DNA of 14,976 nucleotides from Pseudomonadota bacterium (GTDB lineage Bacteria > Pseudomonadota > Gammaproteobacteria > Steroidobacterales > Steroidobacteraceae). A model generated the notes under the pieces. That model was given only the letters and a program-made list of their open reading frames with translations, was not told where the DNA came from and did not search any database. Each line of letters starts with the position of its first letter. Positions within the stretch are counted from its first letter, which is position 1. The stretch covers positions 1-14,976 of the forward strand of contig JAJZFQ010000206.1 of the NCBI GenBank assembly GCA_021805275.1. The letters run 5' to 3'. Of this stretch, positions 186 to 14,976 are shown one piece after another. The translations under genes were made by a program, and so were the position numbers.

Positions 186-1532
186 ATGAAAGTGACCATC
201 TTTGGTTCGGGATATGTGGGACTGGTGACCGGGGCCTGCCTGGCGGAAGCCGGCAATCACGTGGTCTGCGTCGATGTGGACGCGGGCAAGATCGAGCGCC
301 TCAAGCGCGGCGAGGTCCCGATTCATGAGCCGGGGCTCGATACGTTGCTTCACCGCAACGCCGCGGCGGGGCGCATCGAATTCACAACCGATGCCGCGCA
401 CGGCGTCGCGCACGGTCTGTTCCAGTTCATTGCGGTCGGCACGCCCCCCGACGAGGACGGCTCGGCCGACCTGCGCCACGTGCTGGCGGCGGCGCGCACC
501 ATCGCGACGCACATGACGCGCTACACCGTCGTAGTGACCAAGTCGACCGTGCCCGTCGGGACGGCGGACAAGGTCCGCGGCGAGCTCGCCAAGACGCTGC
601 GGGAGCGTGGGGCGGCGATCGAATTCGACGTGGTCTCCAACCCCGAATTCCTCAAGGAGGGCGCGGCGATCGCGGACTTCATGAAGCCCGACCGGGTGGT
701 GATCGGCACCGACAATCCCCGCACCACCGAGCTGCTGCGGGCGCTGTACGAGCCGTTCACGCGCAATCACGACCGGCTGATCGTCATGGACATCCGCTCC
801 GCGGAGCTGACCAAGTACGCGGCCAATTCCATGCTCGCGACCAAGATCAGCTTCATGAACGAGCTGGCGAACATCGCCGAGCGGCTCGGGGCGGACATCG
901 AGAAGGTTCGCGTCGGCATCGGCTCCGATCCGCGGATCGGTTACGGCTTCATCTATCCCGGGGCCGGCTACGGCGGCTCGTGCTTCCCGAAGGACGTCAA
1001 GGCGCTGATCCGCTCCAGCCACGATGCCGGTCACGCGCCGGCGCTGCTGAATGCGGTGGAAGAGGTCAACGCCCGCCAGAAGGAGGTGCTGTTCGGCAAG
1101 ATCTCGCGCCATTTCGGGGGCGCGCTCGGCGGACGGACCGTGGCGCTCTGGGGTCTGGCGTTCAAGCCCGACACCGACGACATGCGCGAGGCCTCCTCGC
1201 GCGCGCTGATGGAGGCGCTCTGGAGCGCCGGGGCGCGCGTGCGGGCCTACGATCCGGTGGCCACTGGCGAGGCGCAGCGCCTCTATGGCGCGCGAGCCGA
1301 TCTGACGCTCACGGACAACGCCTACACGGCGGTCGAGGGTGCGGACGCGCTGGCCATCGTGACGGAGTGGAAGGAGTTCCGCAGCCCGGACTTCGAGCGG
1401 CTGCGCGAGCTGCTCGCCACGCCGGTGATCTTCGATGGCCGCAACCTCTACGACCCGCACATGGTCGAGAGCTTCGGGCTCTCGTATTACGCGATCGGCC
1501 GCGGCCGATCGCTGCGTTTCCCGCAGGTCTGA
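186..1532 (+). CDS. ugd: UDP-glucose 6-dehydrogenase
   Basis: The enzyme oxidises UDP-glucose to UDP-glucuronate with two NAD+ in the cytoplasm, supplying acidic sugar for polysaccharide or lipopolysaccharide. The protein has 448 residues, the usual size for the longer bacterial class. It starts with a Rossmann dinucleotide fold ([10 protein letters not shown] at residues 7-16). It carries the STVPVGT segment, the EFLKEG motif (E154-E158) and the catalytic cysteine loop [10 protein letters not shown] with Cys266. A C-terminal UDP-binding Rossmann domain opens with [13 protein letters not shown]. The ATG at 186 is chosen because the Rossmann strand begins directly there; no strong Shine-Dalgarno is visible before it. 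The mannose guanylyltransferase gene starts 19 bp downstream on the same strand, so the two are probably co-transcribed. The family assignment is firm; which polymer uses the product is not visible here. Confidence 0.96.
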
Positions 1533-1551
1533 CTTCACCAGGGCTGTACCC

Positions 1552-2973
1552 ATGCTCACCCCGGTCATTCTCTCCGGCGGCGCCGGCACGCGACTCTGGC
1601 CGCTCTCGCGCGAGCTGTATCCGAAGCAACTGCTGGCGCTCACCGGCGAGCGCACCATGATCCAGCAGACCGCGCTGCGGCTCGAGGGCCTGCCCATCGC
1701 CGCTCCGGTGGTGGTGTGCAACGAGGCGCACCGCTTCCTGGTCGCCGAGCAGCTGCGCCAGATTCGCATCGAGCCGCAGGCCATCGTGCTCGAGCCAGTG
1801 GGGCGCAATACGGCGCCTGCGATCGGACTCGCGGCGCATGCGGCGCTCAAGGCCGCCAGCGGCGCCGATCCGCTGCTGCTGGTGCTGCCGGCCGATCACG
1901 TCATCCGGGACGTGCCGGTTTTTCAGAAGGCGGTGCACGCGGCGCTCGCGGCAGCCAGTGCGGGCAAGCTGGTCACCTTCGGCATCGTCCCGACTCAGGC
2001 CGAGACCGGCTACGGCTACATCCAGCGCGGCGCACGTCAGGGCGAGGCTTATGCGATCGCCCGGTTCGTCGAGAAGCCCGACGCGGAGCGCGCCGAGCAG
2101 TTCCTCGCCTCGGGCGAGTACTACTGGAACAGCGGCATGTTCCTCTTCGGGGCGCGGCGCTATCTCGAGGAGCTCGGACGGCTGGCCCCAGAGATAGCCC
2201 GGGTCTGTGCCGAGGCGTTCGCGGCGGCCCACGCGGATCTGGATTTCACGCGCATCGATCGGCAGCACTTCGAGGCCTGCCCGGCCGACTCGATCGACTA
2301 TGCGGTCATGGAAAAGACCCAGGATGCCGTGGTTGTGCCGCTCGATGCGGGCTGGAGCGATGTGGGGTCCTGGGCGGCCCTGCATGAGGCCTGCGAGGCC
2401 GACGCTCACGGCAACGTGGCGCGCGGCGATGTGATCTGCGAGGACACCGAGGGCTGCTATCTGTATGCCGAGAGCCGTCTGGTCTCGGCGGTCGGGCTGA
2501 AGGACCACGTCGTGGTCGAGACCAAGGACGCGGTGCTGGTGGCGCCGAAGGACCGCGTGCAGGACGTGAAGCGGCTGGTGCACCGGCTGAAGGAGGCCGG
2601 TCGCTACGAGCACAGTCTGCACCGGGAGGTCTTCCGGCCCTGGGGCAGTTACGACAGCATCGAGAGCGGTCCGCGCTTCCAGGTCAAGCGCCTGAACGTC
2701 AAGCCCGGCGCGGTGCTCTCGCTGCAGCTGCATCACCACCGCGCCGAGCACTGGGTCGTGGTCTCCGGGACCGCGCGCATCACCCGAGGGGACGAGGTGT
2801 TCCTGCTCGAGGAGAACCAGTCGACCTACATCCCGATCGGGGTGCGCCACCGCATCGAGAACCCGGGCAAGATTCCGCTGCACATCATCGAGATCCAGTC
2901 CGGCTCCTACCTCGGCGAGGACGATATCGTGCGCCTCGAGGACCAGTACGGCCGGCAGGGTACGACGAGCTGA
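1552..2973 (+). CDS. manC: Mannose-1-phosphate guanylyltransferase / mannose-6-phosphate isomerase (bifunctional)
   Basis: This is a type II bifunctional enzyme (ManC/AlgA/XanB family). The N-terminal domain makes GDP-mannose from mannose-1-phosphate and GTP, and the C-terminal cupin interconverts fructose-6-phosphate and mannose-6-phosphate. The 473 residues match the family length. Visible signatures are the nucleotidyltransferase loop [12 protein letters not shown] (residues 9-20) with PKQ at 24-26, FVEKP at 172-176, the [10 protein letters not shown] segment, and the isomerase motif [10 protein letters not shown] with His394-His396. The reading frame is open further upstream, to 1435 inside the dehydrogenase gene. 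The ATG at 1552 is chosen because the family's conserved N-terminus starts there and AGGG sits 8 bases before it. With the upstream dehydrogenase it supplies two activated sugars typical of acidic exopolysaccharides. Sometimes named algA, cpsB or xanB in relatives. Confidence 0.95.
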
Positions 2974-2985
2974 TCGACGCGGCAG

Positions 2986-3204
2986 TCAGCGGATGGCGCC
3001 GGATTGGCGCAGCAGGGCGAGCAAGGCCCGCTCCATGTCGCAGACCCTGGATTGGATGTCGAGCAACTGTTCGCGGATCGATTCGACGTCCGTCCTCAGG
3101 GTCCGCAAAGACTGCCATGCGATGCGCCGTTGGCCTGCGGCCCTGCGGGGCGCTTCGGTTGGCGCGTGCTGCCTGGCCGCGGCGGCTTGCGTACGATGGG
3201 GCAT
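2986..3204 (-). CDS. Small hypothetical protein with predicted coiled coil
   Basis: A 72-residue protein of unknown function. The first 30 or so residues are basic and rich in Arg, Ala and Gln. Residues from about 36 to 68 look like an amphipathic coiled coil (spaced Leu/Ile/Val in the stretch from TDVESIREQL to ALLALLRQ), with a single Cys. The start is supported by GGAG five bases before the ATG at 3204 (minus-strand reading GGAGACATC-ATG). It ends 12 bp from the end of the + strand guanylyltransferase gene, so the two converge. I recognise no family. A real small gene is more likely than a shadow because no other gene overlaps it, the ribosome site is good and the helix has heptad character. 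Expression is unproven. Confidence 0.55.
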   Translation of the reverse strand: MPHRTQAAAARQHAPTEAPRRAAGQRRIAWQSLRTLRTDVESIREQLLDIQSRVCDMERALLALLRQSGAIR

Positions 3205-3336
3205 GATGTCTCCAGCTGGGCTTGCGCTCCGGGGCGGAAGCGCCCCGCTCGGTGCGCCAGGGGTCCCCGCGCGGCGAAGGGGTCATCCCGGCGCGGATCG
3301 GTCCACTCGGTGCGCAAGCCGCAGCTCAAGAGACGG

Positions 3337-3355
3337 GCCCGCGTCGACGGCGGGC
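3337..3355. repeat. Short GC-rich inverted repeat downstream of the Uma2 gene
   Basis: GCCCGC (3337-3342) and GCGGGC (3350-3355) form a 6-bp stem with a 7-base loop, 17 bp beyond the stop of the minus-strand Uma2 gene. The position would suit a terminator, but no T-run follows on either strand, so it may be chance in GC-rich DNA. The rest of 3205-3371 holds nothing else I can name. Confidence 0.25.
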
Positions 3356-3371
3356 AATGTGTGGCGGAACT

Positions 3372-3971
3372 TCAGTCCTCGGGACTGGCCAGAATTGCGG
3401 CCAAGTCCACGGCCACGTCCGTCAGTCCCGGCAGGAACATCACTCCGGGATTTTCGGTGGCCGTCTCATCGGCGTAATGCCCCGCGGTGAGCTCCCGGAA
3501 GAAATGCACCGTCGCGCTCGTGAGGTCGAGCAGCCACACCTCGGGCACGCCGTGCCGGGCATAGAACGGCAGCTTGGTGTCGTGATCGTAGTGCCAGGTG
3601 GCATCGCTGACTTCGATCACGAGGAGCGTATCGGTGGCCGTCGGCGGGGCGCTGCGATGATACCCACCCGACCGGGCCTGCAGCACAGCCAAGTCCGGCA
3701 CCGGCTCGGAGTCCGTTCCCAGGCGCAGTGCCGCATGACGGTGCACGACGCCTTGTGCGCCGACGGCCTGGCGCAGCAGCTCATCGAGTCGGCGCACGAC
3801 GGCACGGTGCCGGGCGCTCGAGGGGGCCTTGTCGAAGATCGCCCCTTCGATCAGCTCGACCCGGACATCGCCCGAGAGCAGCCCCAGGTCGGCCATGCGA
3901 TGGTAGTCCTGCACGCTGATGCGGTGGCGGTGGGGCCGGTCTTCGATATGGTCGTTCGGCAGGTCGTTCAT
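3372..3971 (-). CDS. Uma2 family (DUF820) putative restriction endonuclease-like protein
   Basis: A 199-residue protein of the Uma2/DUF820 family, a PD-(D/E)xK nuclease-fold group that is abundant in cyanobacteria and scattered in other bacteria; its cellular role is mostly unknown. Visible hallmarks are the N-terminal helix region (SVQDYHRMADLGLL), VRVELIEGAIF (residues 36-46), the VPDLAV motif with Asp93, the LVIEVSDAT strand with Glu120, and Lys133 in TKLPFYARHGVPEVWLL. Asp93, Glu120 and Lys133 would be the metal-site and catalytic residues. The frame extends to 4028, but the ATG at 3971 is preferred: GGAA lies six bases ahead, and family members normally have a short polar lead before the SVQDYHRM-like helix. 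It reads opposite to the polysaccharide genes around it, so it is likely an insertion rather than a pathway member. Confidence 0.85.
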   Translation of the reverse strand: MNDLPNDHIEDRPHRHRISVQDYHRMADLGLLSGDVRVELIEGAIFDKAPSSARHRAVVRRLDELLRQAVGAQGVVHRHAALRLGTDSEPVPDLAVLQARSGGYHRSAPPTATDTLLVIEVSDATWHYDHDTKLPFYARHGVPEVWLLDLTSATVHFFRELTAGHYADETATENPGVMFLPGLTDVAVDLAAILASPED

Positions 3972-4076
3972 GGCGATTTCCACTCGAGCCAGAGGCGAAC
4001 AGGGCGAGTCTACGCGGGGCGCGCACACGGCGCATTTCGGTTGAGCGAGACGGGCGCGTTGCTTGCCACGGCTTGT

Positions 4077-4108
4077 CGCCGAGCGCCGGGGGTTGCCGGC
4101 GCTCGGCG
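4077..4108. promoter_or_regulatory. Strong hairpin in the leader of the phosphomannomutase gene
   Basis: A perfect 13-bp inverted repeat: CGCCGAGCGCCGG (4077-4089) pairs with CCGGCGCTCGGCG (4096-4108) across a 6-base loop, GGGTTG. It ends 36 bp before the mutase ATG and lies in the divergent gap between that gene and the Uma2 gene. No T-run follows on either side, so it is not a classical intrinsic terminator. It could be an RNA structure affecting the downstream gene, an operator palindrome or a REP-like element. The pairing is directly visible; any function is inference. Confidence 0.6.
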
Positions 4109-4144
4109 CACCTGCAATCCTTGGGCCCCGCTTCCGGAGGACGC

Positions 4145-5497
4145 ATGCTGAATCTGAACGCGTTCAAGGCCTACGACATCCGCGGCCGCATTCCCGATGA
4201 AATCAATGCCTCCCTCGCCTACGACATCGGGCGGGCCTTCTGCGCACTGGTCAATCCGCGCCAGGTCGCGGTCGGCTACGACATTCGCCTGACGAGCCCC
4301 GAGCTCGCCGCGGCGGTGCGCCGCGGACTCACTGACTGTGGCGTCGATGTGCTCGACATCGGCCTGTGGGGCACCGAAGCGGCGTATTTCTCGACGTTCG
4401 CCTATGAGCTGGACGGCGGGATCATGGTGACTGCCAGTCACAATCCATCCGACTACAACGGCATGAAATTCGTGCGTCAGCAGGCCCGGCCGGTGAGTTC
4501 TGATACGGGTCTGAACGAGATGCGCGACATGATTGCCGCAGGGCGCCTGCCGGGCAAAGCGGCCCGACCGGGCACCGAGAGCGGCCTCGACATCCGCGCG
4601 CGTTACATCGAGCACCTGCTCGGCTACGTCGATCGCGCCCGGCTGCGCAAGCTCAAGGTGGTGGTCAATCCGGGCAACGGCGGGGCCGGACTCGTCATCG
4701 ATGCGCTCGCGCCCCACCTGCCGTTTGAATTCATCAAGATGAACCATCAGCCCGATGGCACTTTCCCCAACGGGATTCCCAACCCGATGCTCGAGGAGAA
4801 CCGCGCAGTGACCGCCGAGGTGGTGCGCCGCAGCGGCGCGGATGTTGGCCTTGCGTGGGACGGGGACTACGACCGGTGCTTCTTCTTCGACGAGCAGGGC
4901 ACCTTCATCGAGGGCTACTACCTGGTGGGACTGCTCGCCGAGGTGTTTCTCGCGCGCGAGCCCGGCGGACGTATCGTGCACGATCCGCGTCTCACCTGGA
5001 ACACCATCGACATTGTTCGTGCGCACGGCGGCACGCCGGTGTTGTGCCGCTCCGGCCACGCCTTCATCAAGCAGAAGATGCGCGAGGTCGACGGGATCTA
5101 CGGCGGTGAGATGAGCGCGCATCATTATTTCCGCTCCTTCGCCTACTGCGACAGCGGCATGATTCCCTGGCTGGTGGCGCTGCAGGTCATCGCCGAGCGC
5201 GGACCGCTCTCGAAGCTCGTGGGCGAGCGGATGCGATGCTTCCCGGCGAGCGGCGAGATCAACCGACACCTCCCGAGCGATGCTCGCTCGATCCTCGAGC
5301 GACTCAAGCGCCAGTACGAGGGCGCCGCGCTCGCCGTCGATCGCACCGACGGGCTATCGATGGAGTTCGCCGACTGGCGCTTCAACGTGCGCGGCTCGAA
5401 CACCGAGCCGCTGGTGCGTCTGAACGTCGAGAGCCGCGGCAGCGAGGCGCTGATGCGCGAGAAAACCGCTGAGGTTTTGCGGCTGATCGAGGCCTGA
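4145..5497 (+). CDS. algC: Phosphomannomutase / phosphoglucomutase (AlgC-type)
   Basis: A cytoplasmic alpha-D-phosphohexomutase that interconverts mannose-6-P with mannose-1-P and glucose-6-P with glucose-1-P. It bridges the two sugar-nucleotide enzymes upstream: it makes the substrate of the guanylyltransferase and the precursor of UDP-glucose. It has 450 residues. The four-domain family signatures are all present: AYDIRG near residues 9-14, the phosphoserine loop TASHNPSDYNGMK with Ser98, the metal site DGDYDR (D239, D241, D243), the sugar-specificity loop GEMSAHHYF, and the phosphate-binding loop GSNTEPLVRLN from residue 417. The ATG at 4145 has GGAGG seven bases ahead; the frame is open further left to 4073, but the conserved N-terminus begins here. 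The gene is separated from the guanylyltransferase by two minus-strand genes and so probably has its own promoter. The symbol follows the Pseudomonas bifunctional enzyme; manB/pmm is an alternative. Confidence 0.95.
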   Translation: MLNLNAFKAYDIRGRIPDEINASLAYDIGRAFCALVNPRQVAVGYDIRLTSPELAAAVRRGLTDCGVDVLDIGLWGTEAAYFSTFAYELDGGIMVTASHNPSDYNGMKFVRQQARPVSSDTGLNEMRDMIAAGRLPGKAARPGTESGLDIRARYIEHLLGYVDRARLRKLKVVVNPGNGGAGLVIDALAPHLPFEFIKMNHQPDGTFPNGIPNPMLEENRAVTAEVVRRSGADVGLAWDGDYDRCFFFDEQGTFIEGYYLVGLLAEVFLAREPGGRIVHDPRLTWNTIDIVRAHGGTPVLCRSGHAFIKQKMREVDGIYGGEMSAHHYFRSFAYCDSGMIPWLVALQVIAERGPLSKLVGERMRCFPASGEINRHLPSDARSILERLKRQYEGAALAVDRTDGLSMEFADWRFNVRGSNTEPLVRLNVESRGSEALMREKTAEVLRLIEA

Positions 5498-5620: not shown

Positions 5621-6139
5621 ATGGCGTTGTGGAAAGATTCGAACTCACCGGGCACCGGCTTCGCTAGTGGTTCCGCGTCCGCCCCGCCGGCGCCGCGCGA
5701 TGCGACGCCGAATATCGCACCGCTGGCGGAGGCTCAGCGCCGTACCGGCGCGGCCCGTGCTGACGCCAAGGAGTCGCTGATCGCCTCGGGATTGACCCTC
5801 GAGGGCAAGATCAACGGCACCGGTCACGTGCGGGTGGCGGGTCGGTTCAAAGGCGATGTGCATATCGACGGCACCCTCACCCTGGATTCCGGCGCCCGAC
5901 TCGAGGGTCACGTCAAGGCCGCCGCGGTGATCGTCGGTGGAGAGCTGATCGGCAACATCGTCGATGCGCAACAGGTGGATCTGCGCGAGGGCGGACGCAT
6001 TGAGGGCGACATCAAAGCCGGTGCGTTCACCGTGGCCTCGGGCGCCCGCATGCGCGGCAAGGTCGAGTTCGGTTGGGACCGTTCGGCAGGAACCGCGACC
6101 GACACGCTCGCTGAGTCGGTAATTACCGGGACGGTATGA
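5621..6139 (+). CDS. Bactofilin (polymer-forming cytoskeletal protein)
   Basis: A 172-residue bactofilin (DUF583/CcmA-like). Members self-assemble without nucleotide into filaments or membrane-associated sheets that place cell-wall or polysaccharide enzymes. The pattern is classic: a disordered Ser/Ala/Pro-rich N-terminal tail (about residues 5-45), then a right-handed beta-helix of short repeats from about residue 50 to 155 (for example TLEGKINGTG, GRFKGDVHIDG, ARLEGHVKA, GRIEGDIKAG), and a short C-terminal tail. The start at 5621 is preferred over in-frame upstream codons (open to 5528) because MALWK-type short N-termini fit the family and a GGGGG tract lies seven bases ahead. Its stop overlaps the next gene's start as ATGA, which implies translational coupling. 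The 123-bp gap before it suggests a separate promoter from the mutase gene. Confidence 0.92.
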   Translation: MALWKDSNSPGTGFASGSASAPPAPRDATPNIAPLAEAQRRTGAARADAKESLIASGLTLEGKINGTGHVRVAGRFKGDVHIDGTLTLDSGARLEGHVKAAAVIVGGELIGNIVDAQQVDLREGGRIEGDIKAGAFTVASGARMRGKVEFGWDRSAGTATDTLAESVITGTV

Positions 6140-6696: not shown

Positions 6697-7329
6697 TTAA
6701 CGCCCCCGGTACTTCACGCCGCAGCGGATCATCACCCACTTGAAATCCGCATTGAAGTACCAGTTGTTGCCGAGCGCGTAATCAATTTCGGCCTGTGCGG
6801 CAGGACCGACGCTCGTCTTGTCCAGCTGCAGCGTCCCGACGGCCGGCACGGGCAGCTGGACGTCGGAGATGATCGTGAGCTTCACGCCGAGGCCGACGTA
6901 TGGCTGGAGGCGCTCGTTGGGCAGGAAGTCGTATTTGGCAAGGAGAGTCGGCGGCAGGGGCTTGAAGGTCCCGAGGATCCTCGGCCCGCCGAGCGCGCTG
7001 TGCTCCACCGTCACGGTCTGGCTCTGCGGATACGTCAGCACCCGCTCGCTCGACCAGTGTGGCGTGAAGAAGTACTCCAGATCCACTTCCGCAATCCACT
7101 TGCTGTTGAGGTGGATGGCGCTCGCCGGGATTGCGAGCAGCGGAAAGGCGTCGGATTGGTTCTGCGTGCCCAGGTAAATGCCGCGAACACGGACCGCGAA
7201 TGCCTGGCTGTGCATTTGCTCCGGCCGCTGATCCTGGCCATGGGCCAACCCCGTTCCCGCCAGCGCTGCCATGATTGCGAGGGTCACGGGCTTGACGCTG
7301 CCTCTCAGTGCCTGCTGCTGTCGATCCAT
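6697..7329 (-). CDS. ompW: OmpW family outer-membrane protein (3' end disrupted)
   Basis: OmpW proteins are eight-stranded outer-membrane barrels with a hydrophobic channel, linked to stress and to uptake of small apolar molecules. The open frame encodes 210 residues. A signal peptide covers about residues 1-31 (basic start, then hydrophobic VTLAIMAALAGTGLA). Family features follow: AVRVRGIYLGT near the mature N-terminus, the long loop with KWIAEVDLEYFFTPHWSSE, GTFKPLPPTLLAKYDF, LQPYVGLGVKLTII, and LGNNWYFNADFKWV. After that the expected last strand is missing and the protein ends abruptly in an unrelated ten-residue tail. The ATG at 7329 fits the signal peptide, although no good Shine-Dalgarno precedes it. 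As written, the protein lacks the C-terminal aromatic assembly signal and would probably not fold into the membrane. It lies 149 bp behind the Omp85-family gene on the same strand. Confidence 0.8.
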   Translation of the reverse strand: MDRQQQALRGSVKPVTLAIMAALAGTGLAHGQDQRPEQMHSQAFAVRVRGIYLGTQNQSDAFPLLAIPASAIHLNSKWIAEVDLEYFFTPHWSSERVLTYPQSQTVTVEHSALGGPRILGTFKPLPPTLLAKYDFLPNERLQPYVGLGVKLTIISDVQLPVPAVGTLQLDKTSVGPAAQAEIDYALGNNWYFNADFKWVMIRCGVKYRGR

Positions 7330-7478
7330 CGTGCAGGAACCAGTCGAGGGACCGCTGCGCGGTGCTTCGATACGTGTCAGTACCCAGTCGGCGGCCGGCC
7401 ATGCGTTGCGGTCGGCGCACGCGATAAACCGTCTCGCCGGCGTGACTGCCGGCCGGCTCGTGCCGCCGCGCCGGGCAG

Positions 7479-9197
7479 TTAGAACTGCTGCTCGGTCTGC
7501 ACCAGGAACTGCACGTGTCTTATATTCGAGCCGCCATCCAACGGGAAGGCGAGATCGACGTGGATGACGTTGCCGAAGGCGGTGCGGGCATTGCCCAGGC
7601 GCAGGCCGAAGCCGACGTCCTTGAGCAGCCCGAGGCTCGGTGCGCCGAGCGGCGCGTGTCCCCAGGTGCGCCCCATGTCGAAGAAGGCTGCCGCCCCGAC
7701 CCGGAACAGCCGGAACGGATACCAGTTGCTGAACCATCGCTCCTCGATGGTGAACAGCGATCGGGCCGTGCCGTCCTGATAGCGAAGCGGATAGCCGCGC
7801 AAGCCGCTGTCGCCGCCGAGGAGGATCTGGTTGTCGAGGGCGAGCCGCCGCCCCGCGGTGGCGCCGAGGGCCGTGTAGAGGAGCCACTGGCGAGTCTGCT
7901 CGGCGAAATTGACCACGTTGACGCTGAGCACCCCGTTCTCGAGCGTGCCGTGCTGGATACGGCCGGTGAGGCGGCTCGACACGAGCAAGGTGTCGCCATG
8001 GGGCAGCTCATAACCGTCGCCGACGGTGAACAGGAACGGCAGGGCGCTTTGCCGCGAGCCCAGGGCGCGGTCCGCCCAGCCCATCCGGCCGGTAAAGTAC
8101 GCGCCGATGTCGAAGTCCTCGGTGCGATGGATCTGGTTGTGGTTGCGCATCTTGGCGTACTCGTCCTGCACCAGATCGAGCTCGACCCAGGGATAGGTGA
8201 AGCTGCGGTTCGCCGGCAGCAGGGTCGGTCCGTTCCACTGATTGCTCGGCGCGAAGCGATGCTCATCGTAGGTCCAACCCACGCTCAGACGCCTCGCCCA
8301 GCCGTCCACCAGCCCGCGTGACCACCCGGCATAGCCCTGCAGGTAGCGGTACCGCTCGGAGAACCTGTCGATGATCCGACCCTGGTCATAGAGCGGCTGA
8401 TCGAATGTTGTGTCGCTGAGGGAGATGCCGCCGGCGTGACGGGCTTCGAGGGCGTAGAACGGCCGGTTGACCACCAGCGTGCGCGTCCGTCCGTCGCTCA
8501 GTTCACCGTAGACGACAGAGGCGCTCGTCCAGCCGCCGAACAGGTGCTGATTCGATACGGCGATGTCCGATTCGCTCCGGTCGACCTTGTTCAGGTGCTT
8601 CAGCGAGATGTCCGTGCCGGTGCCGGCGACGTTCATGTCCTCCAGCTGAAAGCCGGTGGTGCTCTGACCGCCGCTGCGCGAGAAGTCGAAGCCGGGGTTC
8701 AGTGTCCAGACGTCGTGCGTGACGACGAGCACATCGACCTTGCCGTCGTGATAGCGGAACGGTCGGACCGAGGCATCGTAGAAGTACGGATCGGCACGCA
8801 GGATGCGTGCCGATTCGGCAAGCAGATGGCCCGAGAAGCGCTGACCGCTGTGAAACAGCAGTTGCTTGCGGATCAGGCTGCGGCGCGTGCGCCGGTGCAG
8901 GCGGTTGGCGAGTCGGAACAGCGGCTTGTCGTCCTTGGGATCCTTCAGATTGAAGATGTTCTCGTTGCGGATCACGATCGTGCCGATTACAGCGCCGAGA
9001 CGCTCGAGCGCGGCATCGGACGGGATCGTGCGCACCGCGGAGTGACGATGGGTGCGCGCGGCCGCACTCTTCGGGCAGGCCATGGTGCATGGGGCGGTGC
9101 CGGCGAGCGCGGCGTGCGCGAGCCACTGCAGCGCGAGCGCGCCGGCCGCTCCGAGCAGCGCGCGGACCCGGCGGGGGCGGGCCTGGGCGCCCCTCAC
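7479..9197 (-). CDS. Omp85/BamA-family surface antigen-type outer-membrane protein
   Basis: A 572-residue protein of the Omp85 superfamily (BamA/TamA/ShlB-like). Translation probably begins at the GTG at 9197, followed by a basic stretch and a hydrophobic signal (ALLGAAGALALQWLAHAALA, about residues 13-32). Residues 50-160 look like one or at most two POTRA-like modules (IRKQLLFHSGQRFSGHLLAES, then RILRADPYFYDASV and VDVLVVTHDVWTL). The rest is a beta barrel of about 400 residues. It includes the late conserved GGDSGLRGYPLRY segment, which corresponds to the LRGY/VRGY motif of the lid loop, and ends in Phe (QTEQQF), the barrel assembly signal. It is shorter than BamA (about 800 residues), and no chaperone or lipid genes accompany it, so it is not the essential BamA. 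Export of a partner protein or lipid is possible but unproven. The start codon is the least certain part. Confidence 0.82.
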   Translation of the reverse strand: MRGAQARPRRVRALLGAAGALALQWLAHAALAGTAPCTMACPKSAAARTHRHSAVRTIPSDAALERLGAVIGTIVIRNENIFNLKDPKDDKPLFRLANRLHRRTRRSLIRKQLLFHSGQRFSGHLLAESARILRADPYFYDASVRPFRYHDGKVDVLVVTHDVWTLNPGFDFSRSGGQSTTGFQLEDMNVAGTGTDISLKHLNKVDRSESDIAVSNQHLFGGWTSASVVYGELSDGRTRTLVVNRPFYALEARHAGGISLSDTTFDQPLYDQGRIIDRFSERYRYLQGYAGWSRGLVDGWARRLSVGWTYDEHRFAPSNQWNGPTLLPANRSFTYPWVELDLVQDEYAKMRNHNQIHRTEDFDIGAYFTGRMGWADRALGSRQSALPFLFTVGDGYELPHGDTLLVSSRLTGRIQHGTLENGVLSVNVVNFAEQTRQWLLYTALGATAGRRLALDNQILLGGDSGLRGYPLRYQDGTARSLFTIEERWFSNWYPFRLFRVGAAAFFDMGRTWGHAPLGAPSLGLLKDVGFGLRLGNARTAFGNVIHVDLAFPLDGGSNIRHVQFLVQTEQQF

Positions 9198-10615: not shown

Positions 10616-12724
10616 ATGAGAATTCACCGGTTTGGGGTGCTGGGCCTGCTGATCGCGCTGCTGTCGGCAGCGGCTGTGCCGCTCGCCTTGGCTCAGGAGA
10701 ATCCGCCGGATCGGGTCGGACGCCTCAGCTACATCGGCGGCCGCGTGTCGTTCGAGCCGGCCGGGACGCAGAGCTGGACGGCCGCTGAGTTGAACCGGCC
10801 GGTGACGATCGGGGATCGGATCTGGACCGATTGGGATTCGCGCGCCGAGATCGAGCTCGGCGATGCCGTGGTGCGCCTTGGCAGCCGGACCGGCTTCTCC
10901 CTGCTCAACCTCGATTCGATGACGGCGCAGATCCAGCTCACTGCCGGGACGCTGATCGTGCGGGTGCGCTCTCTGGCGGACGGGGAGCAGGACGAGATCG
11001 ACACGCCCAATCTGGCGCTCTCGCTCCAGCGGCGCGGCACGTACCGCGTCGAGGTCGACTCCGCGGGGGATGCGACCCGGGTCGAGGTCATCAGTGGCGA
11101 GGCGCTGGCCAGTGGCGGCGGGCAGAGCTTCCCGGTGACCGCCCAGCAGAGCGCGGTGTTTTCCGGCACCGACACGCTGAACGTGATCTACGCCACGCTC
11201 GGCGTGCCGGATGCGCTCGACGAATGGTCGATGGCCCGCGACCGTCAGGAGCAGCAGTCCGCCGCCCAGGTCGCGAGCTACGTCTCGCCGGACACGGTCG
11301 GCATTTACGACCTGGATACCTATGGCAGCTGGCAGGCCACGCCGCAATGGGGCTATGCGTGGTTCCCGAATGTGGTGGTCGGCTGGGCGCCGTATCGGTT
11401 CGGTCATTGGGTGTGGATCTTCCCCTGGGGCTGGACCTGGGTTGACAACGAGCCCTGGGGCTTCGCTCCGTTTCACTATGGGCGTTGGGGGTACTGGCAC
11501 AACGCCTGGTGCTGGGTTCCCGGGCCGCGGAACGTGCGGCCGGTCTATGCGCCCGCGCTCGTGGCGTGGGCCCATGGGCCGCGCGACGGCGGTCCTCGCT
11601 CCGTACCGCAGGTCGGGTGGTTGCCGCTCGGGCCGCGGGACGTGTACGTGCCCGGTTATGCGGCCAATGCCGCGTACGTTCGCAGCGTCAATCTGGCGAA
11701 TGCACGCGATCTGAATGCGGCGTCCTTCGCGGCTGCGTATCGGCGCGGGCCGGCGGGGTTGCGCTACGCCAATCGAGACGTGCCGGGGGCCATTACCGCG
11801 GTACCACGAGCGGCCTTCAGCGCATCTCGGGCGGCCGATGCGCACCGTGTCGTGCTCAATCGGCGGGGATTGCTCAACGTTCGGCTGAGCCCGGAGGCGC
11901 CCGCGATCACCCCGTCGCGCGCGAGCGTCTTTGGTGCGCGCGTGCACAATCTTCAGGTGCCGCCGCGCCAGCTGACGGACCGCCCGGTGGTCGCGCGGCT
12001 GCTTCCGCCCCGGGCCGCGGTCTCTTTCGCACGGCAGCAAGCGGCGATCCAGGCCAATGGCGGACGGATGCCGGCGCCGCCGCAATGGGCGCGCTTGCGA
12101 CCGAATATGCCCGCCTCCCCGGTGCGCCTGGCCCCGGAGACCCGCCCCGCAGCGCCGCCGTCCTCGCAAAGGCGGCCGCGCGGTGGGTTCACGAGCCGGC
12201 CGCAGCCGACGAGGGCGCCTGCCGTCCCACGGGCGTATCCGCGGCCGCAGTCTCAATACCGCAGCGACCGTCCGGCATGGGCCCGATCGCCCCAGCCGGC
12301 CGGTCGGCCCGAGGTGCCCGTGCGCGCGCCGCGCCCGCCGGCCGCTCGCGAGGTCTCGCCGTTCAGGGCACCGCAATTCCCTGCCGAACGGCCGGCACCG
12401 CGACCGCAGTCCCCGCCGCGCGAAAGCGCCCCGCCGGGGGCGCCCCGGGCGCGCCCCGTGCCCGCGGGACGGCCGCCGCTCGAGGTCTCGATGTGGAGCT
12501 CGGCGCCGCCGATGTACCGTGCCCAGGATGTCTCCGCTTCCGTGCGTTCTGACCCCTCGCTGACGAGTCCGCCCCCGCGCGAGTACGCGCCCCCGCGCTC
12601 CCCGCCACCGATGTACCGTGTACTGTCCCCGCCCGCCGTTGCGCCGGCGCCACCAACTGAGTACCGTCCTGCGGCTCCGCCCGAGGCGCGTGTATGGAGA
12701 CCGCATCAGCCCGGGCGGCGATGA
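10616..12724 (+). CDS. Exported FecR-like / DUF6600-type protein with Trp-rich core and Pro-rich tail
   Basis: A 702-residue protein of unknown function. A signal peptide spans residues 1-26 (cleavage after ALA), so it is periplasmic or surface-located. Residues 34-150 resemble a FecR-type domain (GRLSYIGGRVSFEPAG, then RIWTDWDSRAEIELGDAVVRLG and a right-handed strand pattern). From Trp245 for about 57 residues the chain is extraordinarily rich in Trp, Tyr, Phe and Gly (HWVWIFPWGWTWVDNEPWG), the hallmark of the DUF6600 family. From about residue 400 to the end it is Pro/Arg/Ala-rich and probably disordered, with two PPMYR copies near the C-terminus. The ATG at 10616 is preferred over the in-frame codon at 10577 because the signal peptide begins there and GGGGCG lies just ahead. 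It stands alone as a transcription unit. The DUF6600 call is from memory of the Trp pattern, and no activity is known to me. Confidence 0.8.
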   Translation: MRIHRFGVLGLLIALLSAAAVPLALAQENPPDRVGRLSYIGGRVSFEPAGTQSWTAAELNRPVTIGDRIWTDWDSRAEIELGDAVVRLGSRTGFSLLNLDSMTAQIQLTAGTLIVRVRSLADGEQDEIDTPNLALSLQRRGTYRVEVDSAGDATRVEVISGEALASGGGQSFPVTAQQSAVFSGTDTLNVIYATLGVPDALDEWSMARDRQEQQSAAQVASYVSPDTVGIYDLDTYGSWQATPQWGYAWFPNVVVGWAPYRFGHWVWIFPWGWTWVDNEPWGFAPFHYGRWGYWHNAWCWVPGPRNVRPVYAPALVAWAHGPRDGGPRSVPQVGWLPLGPRDVYVPGYAANAAYVRSVNLANARDLNAASFAAAYRRGPAGLRYANRDVPGAITAVPRAAFSASRAADAHRVVLNRRGLLNVRLSPEAPAITPSRASVFGARVHNLQVPPRQLTDRPVVARLLPPRAAVSFARQQAAIQANGGRMPAPPQWARLRPNMPASPVRLAPETRPAAPPSSQRRPRGGFTSRPQPTRAPAVPRAYPRPQSQYRSDRPAWARSPQPAGRPEVPVRAPRPPAAREVSPFRAPQFPAERPAPRPQSPPRESAPPGAPRARPVPAGRPPLEVSMWSSAPPMYRAQDVSASVRSDPSLTSPPPREYAPPRSPPPMYRVLSPPAVAPAPPTEYRPAAPPEARVWRPHQPGRR

Positions 12725-12744
12725 TTTTCGGGGAAATCTGATTT

Positions 12745-12771
12745 TTGCCAAGTGGATGGTCCGTCTATAGG
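12745..12771 (+). promoter_or_regulatory. Candidate sigma70 promoter for the cytochrome operon
   Basis: TTGCCA (12745-12750, five of six matches to the -35 consensus) is followed 15 bp later by TATAGG (12766-12771, four of six matches to the -10). The spacer is short, so the call is moderate. It lies just past the end of the preceding gene in the most AT-rich stretch nearby and would start transcription about 100 bp before the cytochrome-porin ATG. No terminator for the preceding gene is evident, so read-through cannot be excluded. Confidence 0.35.
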
Positions 12772-12878
12772 GGTTTTCCACTACCTCGCAGCGGCGTTTC
12801 CGGCTTTCGGCCACAATGGCGGCCCCCGTATCCTGCGCGCCGTTCCGCTGTAAGAAGAAGGCGGACGGGAGAACGCAG

Positions 12879-14315
12879 ATGCGATTTATGACGAGATTTC
12901 AGCTCGCGGCGCTGGTCGCGACCGGCGTGCTGCTGGCGCCCGCCGCGCAGGCGGTGCCCAGTTTCGCGCGCCAGACGGGCATGGCCTGTGCCGCATGCCA
13001 TACGGTTTTCCCTGAACTCACCCACTTCGGTCGTGTGTTCAAGGCGAATGGCTATGTGCTCGACAACCTCAAGCAGGTGCGGGCCGTGAACAGCGAGCGA
13101 CAGCAGCTGCTGTCGCTCTCGCAACTGCCGACGTTCTCGATCATGACGCAGGTGTCGTACACGACGCTCAACAAGCGTCTGCCTGACGCCACCAACCCCG
13201 CTGCGCCCGGGCTTACCCAGAATGGCACCGCGGGGTTCCCGCAGCAGCTCAGTCTGTTCTATGCCGGCCGCATCGCGCCACACTTCGGTGTGTTCTCGCA
13301 GCTCACGTACGGAAACGACTCAGGCACGATCGGCATCGACAACACTGACCTGCGCTTTGCCAAGCTCATCGTTCTGCCGGGCAAGAACACGCTGACCTAC
13401 GGCGTGTCGCTTAATAACAATCCGACCGTCCAGGACCTGTGGAACAGCACGCCGGCGTGGGGCTTCCCATATGACGCCAGCAATGCGGTCGTCTCGCCGC
13501 TTGCCGGGACGCAGATCGACGGCGCAATGGCGCAGAGCGTCGCGGGACTGACCGCCTACCTGTATTTCGACGAGTCGTTGTACGTGGAGTTCGGCGGTTA
13601 TCGCTCCGCGCCACAAGGGCAGACCAATGCGCTCACCGGTCAGGCCGGGCCGTTGGATGGAACCTTCAGCAACGTCATCGAGGGATTCTCCCCGTACTGG
13701 CGCCTGGCCTATGAGTACGATTGGGGCGCGAATTCCCTCGAAGTCGGCACCTATGGAGCGGATTTCAAACTGCACCCGGGTGCCGGTCAGGCGCTGCAGG
13801 GTCCGGATAACCGCTTCGCCGACGTGGCCGAGGACTTCCAGTATCAGTACGTGGGCGAGCGGAACATCGTCAGCATCGCCGGTACGCATATCCACGAGAA
13901 CATGAATCTGGTCGCCAGCTACCTGAGCGGTAGTTCGGCGAATCGCTCGGACAGTCTGAATACGTCCCGGATCTGGGGGAACTACTACTACCAGCGGCGC
14001 TACGGGGCGACCTTCGGATGGTTCTCGACCACCGGAACGACCGACTCGGCGCTCTATCCGGCATCAGGCACTCCGCCGTGCATGAATTCGAGCGGAACGA
14101 CGATCGCCTGCGGTGTCGTTACGAGCGCCAACGGCTCACCGGACACCGACGGGTACGTCGGCGAGATTCAGTATCTTCCCTGGTTGAACGTGAGGCTCTC
14201 GCTGCAGTACACGCACTACAACAAGTTCAACGGTGCCAGCACCAATTACGATGGTCTGGGGCGCAATGCGTCGGACAACGACTCACTGTACTTCTTGCTC
14301 TGGTATGCGTTCTGA
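12879..14315 (+). CDS. Fused monohaem cytochrome c-outer membrane porin (Cyc2-like)
   Basis: The 478-residue protein has a signal peptide (residues 1-25, cleavage after AQA). Almost at once follows a haem c site, C37-A-A-C40-H41, inside the segment PSFARQTGMACAACH, with FPELTHFGRVFKANGY just after. The remaining 400 or so residues have beta-barrel character (alternating aromatic strands, Gly/Asn/Ser turns) and end in WYAF, a C-terminal Phe typical of outer-membrane barrels. This architecture, a tiny N-terminal cytochrome plugged into a porin, is that of Cyc2, the outer-membrane iron oxidase of iron-oxidising bacteria, and of its less characterised relatives. The ATG at 12879 has GGAG seven bases ahead; earlier in-frame codons give no signal peptide. 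A c4 cytochrome gene follows after 10 bp. Function by analogy: moving electrons across the outer membrane. Donor and direction are unknown, and many family members are in organisms not known to oxidise iron. Confidence 0.82.
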   Translation: MRFMTRFQLAALVATGVLLAPAAQAVPSFARQTGMACAACHTVFPELTHFGRVFKANGYVLDNLKQVRAVNSERQQLLSLSQLPTFSIMTQVSYTTLNKRLPDATNPAAPGLTQNGTAGFPQQLSLFYAGRIAPHFGVFSQLTYGNDSGTIGIDNTDLRFAKLIVLPGKNTLTYGVSLNNNPTVQDLWNSTPAWGFPYDASNAVVSPLAGTQIDGAMAQSVAGLTAYLYFDESLYVEFGGYRSAPQGQTNALTGQAGPLDGTFSNVIEGFSPYWRLAYEYDWGANSLEVGTYGADFKLHPGAGQALQGPDNRFADVAEDFQYQYVGERNIVSIAGTHIHENMNLVASYLSGSSANRSDSLNTSRIWGNYYYQRRYGATFGWFSTTGTTDSALYPASGTPPCMNSSGTTIACGVVTSANGSPDTDGYVGEIQYLPWLNVRLSLQYTHYNKFNGASTNYDGLGRNASDNDSLYFLLWYAF

Positions 14316-14325
14316 GGTGCGAGCC

Positions 14326-14976
14326 ATGAATAGCCATCACAAAGTACGGAGCTGGATCCGACGCGCAGTCCTCGCCGCCGCGACCGCGACGTTCACCGTC
14401 CTCACCCTGCCGGCCGGCGCGCAAGGCGCGCCTACGCCGCCGCAGCAGGCGCCCCAGCTGGCGATCGCCGTCTGCGGAACCTGCCACGGCGTCGACGGCA
14501 ACAGCATAAACCCGATGTTCCCGCGCCTCGCTGGGCAGCATGCGTGGTACATCGAGCAGCAGCTGAAGGAGTTTCGGGCCGAGACACGCGGAGACCCGTA
14601 TGCCGTGGCCTACATGTGGGGCATGGCGAACCAGCTGTCCGACCCGACAATCGACGCGCTGGCGGAGTACTTCTCGCACCAGACTGCGGGGCCGGGAAAA
14701 TCGCACCCTCAGGCAGTGCTCGATCAGGGGCGGGCTATCTATGAACACGGTATCCCGACTCAGGGGGTGCCGGCGTGTGCGGCGTGCCATGGCCCTCAGG
14801 GCCTCGGCAGCAGCCAGTTTCCCCGGCTCGCCGGGCAGCACGCGGAATACATTCTGAAACAGCTGCAATCCTTCCAGAGCAACATGCGCAAAGTCGCGAT
14901 CATGCACGGCGTCGCGCAGACGCTGCACCAGTCACAGATGAAGGATGTCGCCGACTATCTGGAGTCTCTGCCCTAG
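14326..14976 (+). CDS. Dihaem c4-type cytochrome c (Cyc1-like)
   Basis: A 216-residue periplasmic cytochrome with a signal peptide (about residues 1-33, ending near AGAQG). It consists of two homologous halves, each with one haem c: C50-G-T-C53-H54 and C151-A-A-C154-H155. The halves repeat RLAGQHAWYIEQQL and RLAGQHAEYILKQL. The likely axial methionines are Met97 (YMWGMANQL) and Met193 (IMHGVAQTL), which align between halves. This is the cytochrome c4 pattern; c4 proteins shuttle electrons to terminal oxidases. The ATG at 14326 is chosen because GAGG lies eight bases upstream and just 10 bp separate it from the preceding cytochrome-porin stop; an in-frame ATG at 14305 would overlap that gene. 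The stop codon ends exactly at the window edge, so further operon members (for example oxidase subunits) may follow unseen. Confidence 0.93.
   Translation: MNSHHKVRSWIRRAVLAAATATFTVLTLPAGAQGAPTPPQQAPQLAIAVCGTCHGVDGNSINPMFPRLAGQHAWYIEQQLKEFRAETRGDPYAVAYMWGMANQLSDPTIDALAEYFSHQTAGPGKSHPQAVLDQGRAIYEHGIPTQGVPACAACHGPQGLGSSQFPRLAGQHAEYILKQLQSFQSNMRKVAIMHGVAQTLHQSQMKDVADYLESLP

Follow-up and report, generated by a model that had tools for sequence, protein, structure and literature searches.

The window, a stretch of 14,976 nucleotides from a bacterium of the family Steroidobacteraceae (contig JAJZFQ010000206.1), ends with two adjacent genes that probably encode an electron relay of the Cyc2-Cyc1 kind, leading from the outer membrane to the periplasm. 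The first is a cyc2-like gene for an outer-membrane fused monohaem cytochrome-porin of 478 residues (12879..14315, forward strand, as for all features of the pair); after an intergenic gap of 10 bp (14316..14325) it is followed by a gene for a two-haem cytochrome c4 of 216 residues (14326..14976). At the level of sequence, the relay is well supported by the anatomy and conservation of the pair and Fe(II) is its likely donor, while the flow of electrons through the two proteins is what we infer from their sequences and a structure model. The original prediction for this DNA had proposed such a relay, and the Cyc2 family membership of the first protein, its predicted barrel and the Cyc2-linked grouping of the second now lend that proposal support. 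The pair is a well-defined addition to the Cyc2-Cyc1 type, found in a little-studied bacterial group.

The Cyc2-like porin-cytochrome

The open reading frame (ORF), homologues, structure prediction and trees together place the first protein in the Cyc2 family. The ORF runs from an ATG at 12879 to a stop codon at 14313-14315, with an alternative in-frame ATG possible at 12888. The product has a predicted signal peptide to about A25, then AVPSFARQTGMACAACHTVFPEL, and after it a long domain rich in strands whose last residue is Phe. The signal peptide (residues 1-25, 12879..12953) was assigned by eye, with cleavage between AQA and V, and the model has a helix at residues 5-19 of this hydrophobic N terminus; with 478 residues, the protein exceeds the minimum for Cyc2 of at least 365 residues plus a signal peptide. 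The sequence A25VPSFARQT33 (12951..12977) fits the published Cyc2 consensus AxPxFAR[QK][TY], given in section 12 of PMC8406198, where the spacing to CxxCH is counted as 5. Here the signature ends three residues ahead of C37, which opens the only CxxCH of the protein (C37AACH41, 12987..13001) and, by the same cleavage, is the 12th residue of the mature form. C37, C40 and H41 are invariant across 90 aligned rows, and the PxL motif that accompanies the single haem site of Cyc2 follows as P45EL47 (13011..13019). The structure model predicts a β-barrel of 16 long strands over residues 85-477 (13131..14309), the porin domain; the model contains no haem, and its predicted local distance difference test score (pLDDT) falls below 50 in residues 20-28, 30-32 and 65-81. 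The anatomy originally described, with one CxxCH 12 residues past the cleavage site, a terminal Phe, the 10-bp gap and a two-haem c4, was recovered at the same positions, and both the identification as a Cyc2-like porin-cytochrome and the expectation of a 16-strand barrel agree with these features. Pfam and NCBIfam assigned the protein to no family at E ≤ 0.01 or ≤ 0.1. A single PDB match by phmmer, at E 0.22, was taken as chance.

At least 5710 homologues were found at E ≤ 0.001 among 7998 scored candidates. The combined motif AxPxFAR[QK][TY]-3aa-CxxCH-3aa-PxL occurs in 120 of 122 proteins (the two of the window and the 120 homologues listed), the two without it being the c4 itself and a homologue that starts at the haem site. 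Source names among the homologues listed are mostly 'hypothetical protein', with a few 'cytochrome C', and two of the listed matches, at 72% identity, are named Steroidobacteraceae. Ten loci lie in species-representative genomes, all of them metagenome bins; one of these (L001) is 98% identical in Cyc2 and so is probably of the same species as the window. Another homologue, P0070 (71% identical), carries the name of a Tepidiformaceae bin, a family of the Chloroflexota, which would imply transfer or a mis-binned contig. The phage collection contained no homologue, and nine records of the plasmid collection contained one, each below 60% identity.

Two Cyc2 trees, one with 116 rows and one with 70, put the window into one large group with the Cyc2 of Acidihalobacter. 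The larger tree sampled at most 61 of 360 homologues of the P series and left out truncated, duplicate and frame-broken loci (L011, L019, L044, L046, L051, L052, L070, L091, L092 and L106); the smaller also omitted the near-copies L012 and L013 as well as L093-L105, and took L080 and P0305 as outgroup. Both lack L060, L061, L079 (cut off), L095, L096 and L100, whose haem motif was missed by the pattern, and the Caballeronia and Paraburkholderia proteins entered as annotated, without their haem end. L060:1435-2820 and L061:1348-2805 are strong Cyc2 matches (E 1e-134 and 7e-129) in which SMARQTG replaces the FARQTG of the published motif; the next ORF has one CxxCH in L060, and no CxxCH ORF follows in L061. 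A. ferrooxidans YQ-N3 carries on a plasmid, next to a transposase, a Cyc2-like gene in which FAAQT replaces FARQT (L108, CP084173.1, 5890-7257), and equal match values suggest that this plasmid-borne copy is common to A. ferrooxidans YQ-N3 and Acidiphilium cryptum JF-5. Genome G006 has a second, divergent Cyc2-like protein (L046:8505-9821, about 40% identity) with no c4 neighbour, among genes that resemble those of RND efflux pumps.

Conservation of the pair and grouping of its c4

The cyc2 and c4 genes appear, from their order across relatives, to form a two-gene unit that is conserved in its clade. In the 70-row tree the window's clade comprises 29 rows (support 99/98), and a two-haem ORF stands directly 3' of cyc2 in all 17 clade rows with readable downstream DNA, the window included. 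Outside the clade this holds for 3 of 31 labelled rows (L074, Caballeronia and Ideonella). Mapped on the tree, the presence of an adjacent c4 changes three times, against a mean of 15.6 when labels are shuffled, and none of 500 shuffles was as low. Rows counted as lacking an adjacent c4 include Methylocystis, where three two-haem cytochromes follow, L055 and L075-L078, with one-haem ORFs downstream, and L062 and L064, with a two-haem ORF upstream. The near-copies L012 and L013 also have the two-haem ORF, as does a frame-broken copy in G480; L011 and L019 stop at a contig edge. In the G480 copy (L091/L106, G480:C2:383847-385237) cyc2 is split over two overlapping frames, by a frameshift or an assembly error. 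A consensus scan of 12600-14976 found no terminator-like site in the gap between the two genes. Both genes are under strong purifying selection, since non-synonymous divergence (dN) is far below synonymous divergence (dS) by NG86: dN 0.011-0.064 and dS 0.15-1.01 for cyc2 in four relatives, and dN 0.060-0.113 and dS 0.78-1.44 for c4 in seven.

The assignment of the second protein follows from Pfam, PDB matches and a tree. PF00034 matches it in two stretches (E 2.8e-20), giving the two tandem c-type domains of a cytochrome c4, each with its CxxCH (C50GTCH54, 14473..14487, read from the sequence; C151AACH155, 14776..14790, also supported by alignment). Residues 41-215 align to 1h1o and 1etp, the best solved-structure match being 1h1o, listed as cytochrome c-552 (E 3.9e-39), followed by 1etp (6e-36). 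We take 1h1o to be the A. ferrooxidans cytochrome Cyc1/CYC41. The 16 genomes searched contain 2 to 4 c4 matches each, 39 in total, of which 30 had loci and were usable. In a 45-row tree of c4 proteins, a 100/99 branch present in 200 of 200 bootstrap trees separates 24 Cyc2-linked sequences from 17 generic ones. The linked set includes a Paraburkholderia gene that lies upstream of cyc2 with one gene between, and the generic set consists of other copies in the same genomes, two from G273, 1etp and 6q2u. To the extent that this tree is a guide, the window's c4 is a member of a subfamily that is linked to Cyc2 and separate from the other c4s of the same genomes. With 1h1o on the linked side of the branch, this group probably includes Cyc1.

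The window stops on the c4 stop codon, and its right-hand context can thus be read only in relatives. Upstream of the pair, window-like genomes have a DUF6600/FecR gene, and downstream, near relatives have VirB2/VirB3/VirB4-type genes (Pfam on L002, L004, L006, L008 and L189). The type IV secretion cluster to the right of c4 also comprises VirB5, VirB6, CagX, a VirB11-like ATPase, two TrwB-type coupling proteins and a MobA/MobL relaxase (L002:13432-16256, L004:6395-10361, L005:15462-16460, L006:11287-17347, L008:13416-16243, L047:2-5819 and L189:8815-10457), and an integrated mobilisable element may thus lie next to the pair. Elsewhere the flanks are ordinary genes. In G432, TsaD, DnaG and RpoD-like genes precede the pair and an MTTB gene follows it, and in G143 phasin and PhaC lie upstream. 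The flanking genes of G007 encode a PEP-utilising enzyme and Cpn60, those of G484 a CMD-domain protein and an M16 peptidase, those of G495 an FtsX permease, a high-potential iron-sulfur protein (HiPIP) and a Usp protein, and those of G471 a sensor kinase and an M1 peptidase. Since the pair persists while its flanks change, joint function is the simplest explanation. The view that the pair stands outside a rusticyanin/oxidase operon, first taken from the left-hand neighbours, extends to the right side in these relatives. To the left, the window itself carries a sugar-nucleotide set at 186-5497 (UDP-glucose dehydrogenase, GDP-mannose pyrophosphorylase/PMI and phosphomannomutase genes) with a Uma2 gene between (3375-3983, minus strand). 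Ahead of the pair, between 5621 and 9197, lie a bactofilin gene (5621-6136), an OmpW-family gene within 6700-7887 (minus strand) and a weakly BamA/Omp85-like gene (7482-9197, minus strand).

Respiratory context and rival explanations

In the relay we propose, the pore would admit a reduced donor in solution, for which Fe(II) is the likeliest candidate, and the haem at its periplasmic mouth would take the electron. The c4 would carry it over the periplasm to a cytochrome c oxidase, without rusticyanin; the receiving enzyme would be of the aa3 type in the two near relatives that were typed and cbb3 in a deep one, and in lineages with RuBisCO part of the electrons would go uphill to CO2 fixation. 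Haem-copper oxidase genes are present in all ten close relatives' genomes. Five of the oxidase proteins were typed: those of G002 and G004 score over the cut-off as subunit I of an aa3 cytochrome c oxidase, one is bo3, and two fit no family at the limit applied, one of them apparently read in the wrong frame. The expectation of respiratory genes to the right of the pair was borne out in one relative only. In G143, ccoN (769 bits, cut-off 583) starts 9.4 kb right of c4 and is followed by ccoO, a ccoQ-like gene, ccoP and ccoG (L191:6856-11756 on G143:C23, the pair itself being in L187), and the genes in between encode a response regulator, a regulator of the Crp/Fnr type, a FixL-like kinase, a DsbD-type protein and a P-ATPase of the copper type. 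In one or more deep members of the clade, cbb3 oxidase genes thus lie in the neighbourhood of the pair.

Rusticyanin reached the cut-off in none of the ten close relatives' genomes (nine without a match, one with a weak match of 76 bits). Across 369 genomes of the class, 64 had a match at E ≤ 0.001 and a single one (G217) exceeded the cut-off; that genome has no Cyc2 match. The cut-off is strict, since the rusticyanin of the next genome, G273, scores 137 bits against 146.7. RuBisCO large-subunit matches occur in nine of the ten close relatives, full-length and high-scoring in six only, with a lower-scoring type in G004 and partial matches in G005 and G010. Among 147 genomes of the order, RuBisCO is found in 10 of 16 with a strong Cyc2 and in 9 of 131 others (Fisher p 5e-7, uncorrected for kinship or completeness). 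We put forward, tentatively and as a possibility that falls short of even chances, that cyc2-cyc1 is a minimal portable cassette which stands free of any rusticyanin/oxidase operon. In a large gammaproteobacterial lineage, mostly without cultured members and probably made up of Steroidobacterales and their relatives, it would allow Fe(II) to be oxidised without rusticyanin, through the host's existing cytochrome c oxidase, and in part of the lineage it would pay for RuBisCO-based CO2 fixation.

Several observations weigh against the Fe(II) relay proposed above. Apart from G143, no oxidase, bc1 or copper-protein genes were recognised in the relatives' flanks among the part of the ORFs that was scanned. 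RuBisCO is absent from 6 of the 16 strong-Cyc2 genomes, and the closest genome, G001 (98% Cyc2 identity, 2.5 Mb), has none. The window's c4 is about equally similar to 1h1o (41.6% identity) and 1etp (41.4%), and an approximately unbiased (AU) test rejects neither placement of Cyc1, with the linked (p 0.182) or with the generic c4s (p 0.072). A HiPIP gene (PF01355) accompanies the system in only two lineages in a pattern scan of all loci, after the pair in G495 (L185:8378-8878) and before Cyc2 on the plasmid of Caballeronia sp. SBC1 (L107:4927-5238), next to Cyc2 and a c-type cytochrome. Plasmids of Caballeronia, Methylocystis and Ideonella carry a Cyc2 homologue followed by c-type cytochromes, and these are not known as iron oxidisers. 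DsrA exceeded the cut-off in 5 of 20 genomes, which would offer sulfur as another energy source; with SoxB over the cut-off in none of the 20, sulfur oxidation as the sole support of RuBisCO is not general, though it may apply in some.

These plasmid genes, the strong-Cyc2 genomes without RuBisCO and the DsrA matches would all suit the same relay working with another donor, such as reduced humics, Fe(II)-organic complexes, Mn(II), reduced sulfur or other extracellular reductants, for supplementary energy, and section 13 of PMC8406198 allows additional Cyc2 functions. According to that section, however, Fe(II) is oxidised by each of the three Cyc2 proteins tested in biochemical work, which represent one published cluster each, and the window's protein is kin to a Cyc2 in a rusticyanin cluster (G273), so that we regard another donor as rather unlikely. 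Homeostasis of iron or of oxidative stress, with the pair clearing Fe(II) from the envelope and no energy gained, would fit a stand-alone module next to unrelated genes and the divergent paralogue of G006 among its efflux-like neighbours (named by resemblance only); this role is improbable given that the c4 is dedicated to Cyc2 and differs from the others in the cell, which points to respiration, and given the association of Cyc2 with RuBisCO. The fold does not fix the direction of transfer, and the pair might instead pass electrons outwards, with Fe(III) or something else outside the cell as acceptor. Oxidase genes throughout the close relatives speak against such reverse use, as does the prediction in the sections of PMC8406198 consulted that the one haem is there for Fe(II) that enters the pore in dissolved form; in the portions of the literature examined no Cyc2 acts as a terminal reductase, and we consider export very improbable. 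That a c4 gene merely happens to lie beside a porin gene is hardly credible and already contradicted by the unbroken adjacency in the labelled clade rows, the few label changes on the tree, the separate c4 subfamily and the constancy of the pair amid changing flanks.

Cyc2 serves as a marker of microbial iron oxidation, and caution has been urged on this point, in section 13 of PMC8406198 because the function of many homologues is unverified and in excerpts of PMC12442390 because cyc2 expression alone does not report activity. A dedicated c4 that stays with Cyc2 amid changing surroundings is a second, independent signature, which could tell working electron-uptake modules from orphan Cyc2 genes, and a rusticyanin-free route becomes testable with two proteins.

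Comparison with known systems

The rus operon of A. ferrooxidans, with Cyc2 and Cyc1/CYC41, resembles the window's pair in the Cyc2 signature, the porin fusion and the adjacent c4-type gene. It differs in that the pair has no rusticyanin, Cup or cox directly beside it: none lies to its left in the window and none was recognised adjoining it in relatives, the nearest approach being the cbb3, not aa3, operon of G143. In the Cyc2 trees the proteins of Acidihalobacter prosperus (P0123; about 42% identity, near full length) and A. aeolianus (P0127) share the window's large group. Of four genomes with rusticyanin matches, only G273 has a Cyc2; it is 42% identical to the window's over residues 9-476 and a 100% match to an A. 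prosperus record. The gene order in G273, with names given by resemblance, is cyc2, cup-like, coxB, coxA, further cox, ctaA, ctaB and rusticyanin, so that, unlike in the window, cup-like and cox genes follow Cyc2 and no c4 is directly next.

The group with a CHFQ motif, which we take to be Cluster 1, the cluster of Mariprofundus, lies across a long branch from the window's group; a named Cluster 1 sequence sought through L080 was not among its 120 matches listed, whose names are those of metagenome bins. In the sections of PMC8406198 consulted, Cyc2-PV1 of Mariprofundus (Cluster 1) and Cyt572 of Leptospirillum (Cluster 3) have an architecture like that of the window's protein. Excerpts of PMC10654088 give the order cyc2-cyc1-cup for Acidihalobacter, tie the Cyc2 and Cyc1 of A. 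ferrooxidans to homologues from several groups of proteobacteria, and mention stand-alone cyc2 and cyc1 genes. A search of the main texts of open-licence PMC papers yielded no description of cyc2 and c4 as a conserved module of two genes in this lineage. 'Ferrovum' JA12, for which a rusticyanin-free Cyc2 route is proposed in PMC4725956, and whose family Ferrovaceae is assigned to Cluster 2 in part of PMC13390463, similarly has a Cyc2-like protein, soluble c-type cytochromes, no rusticyanin and a HiPIP of unclear role; its Cyc2-like FERRO_13930, however, is far in locus number from the cytochrome c genes FERRO_02680 and 02750, whereas the window's genes are adjacent. Steroidobacteraceae MAG 28 (metagenome-assembled genome) from acid mine drainage, as described in part of PMC8357290 that gives neither its gene order nor a c4 partner, possibly represents the same broad group: it is credited with a Cyc2-like gene, carbon fixation, and caa3 and bo oxidases.
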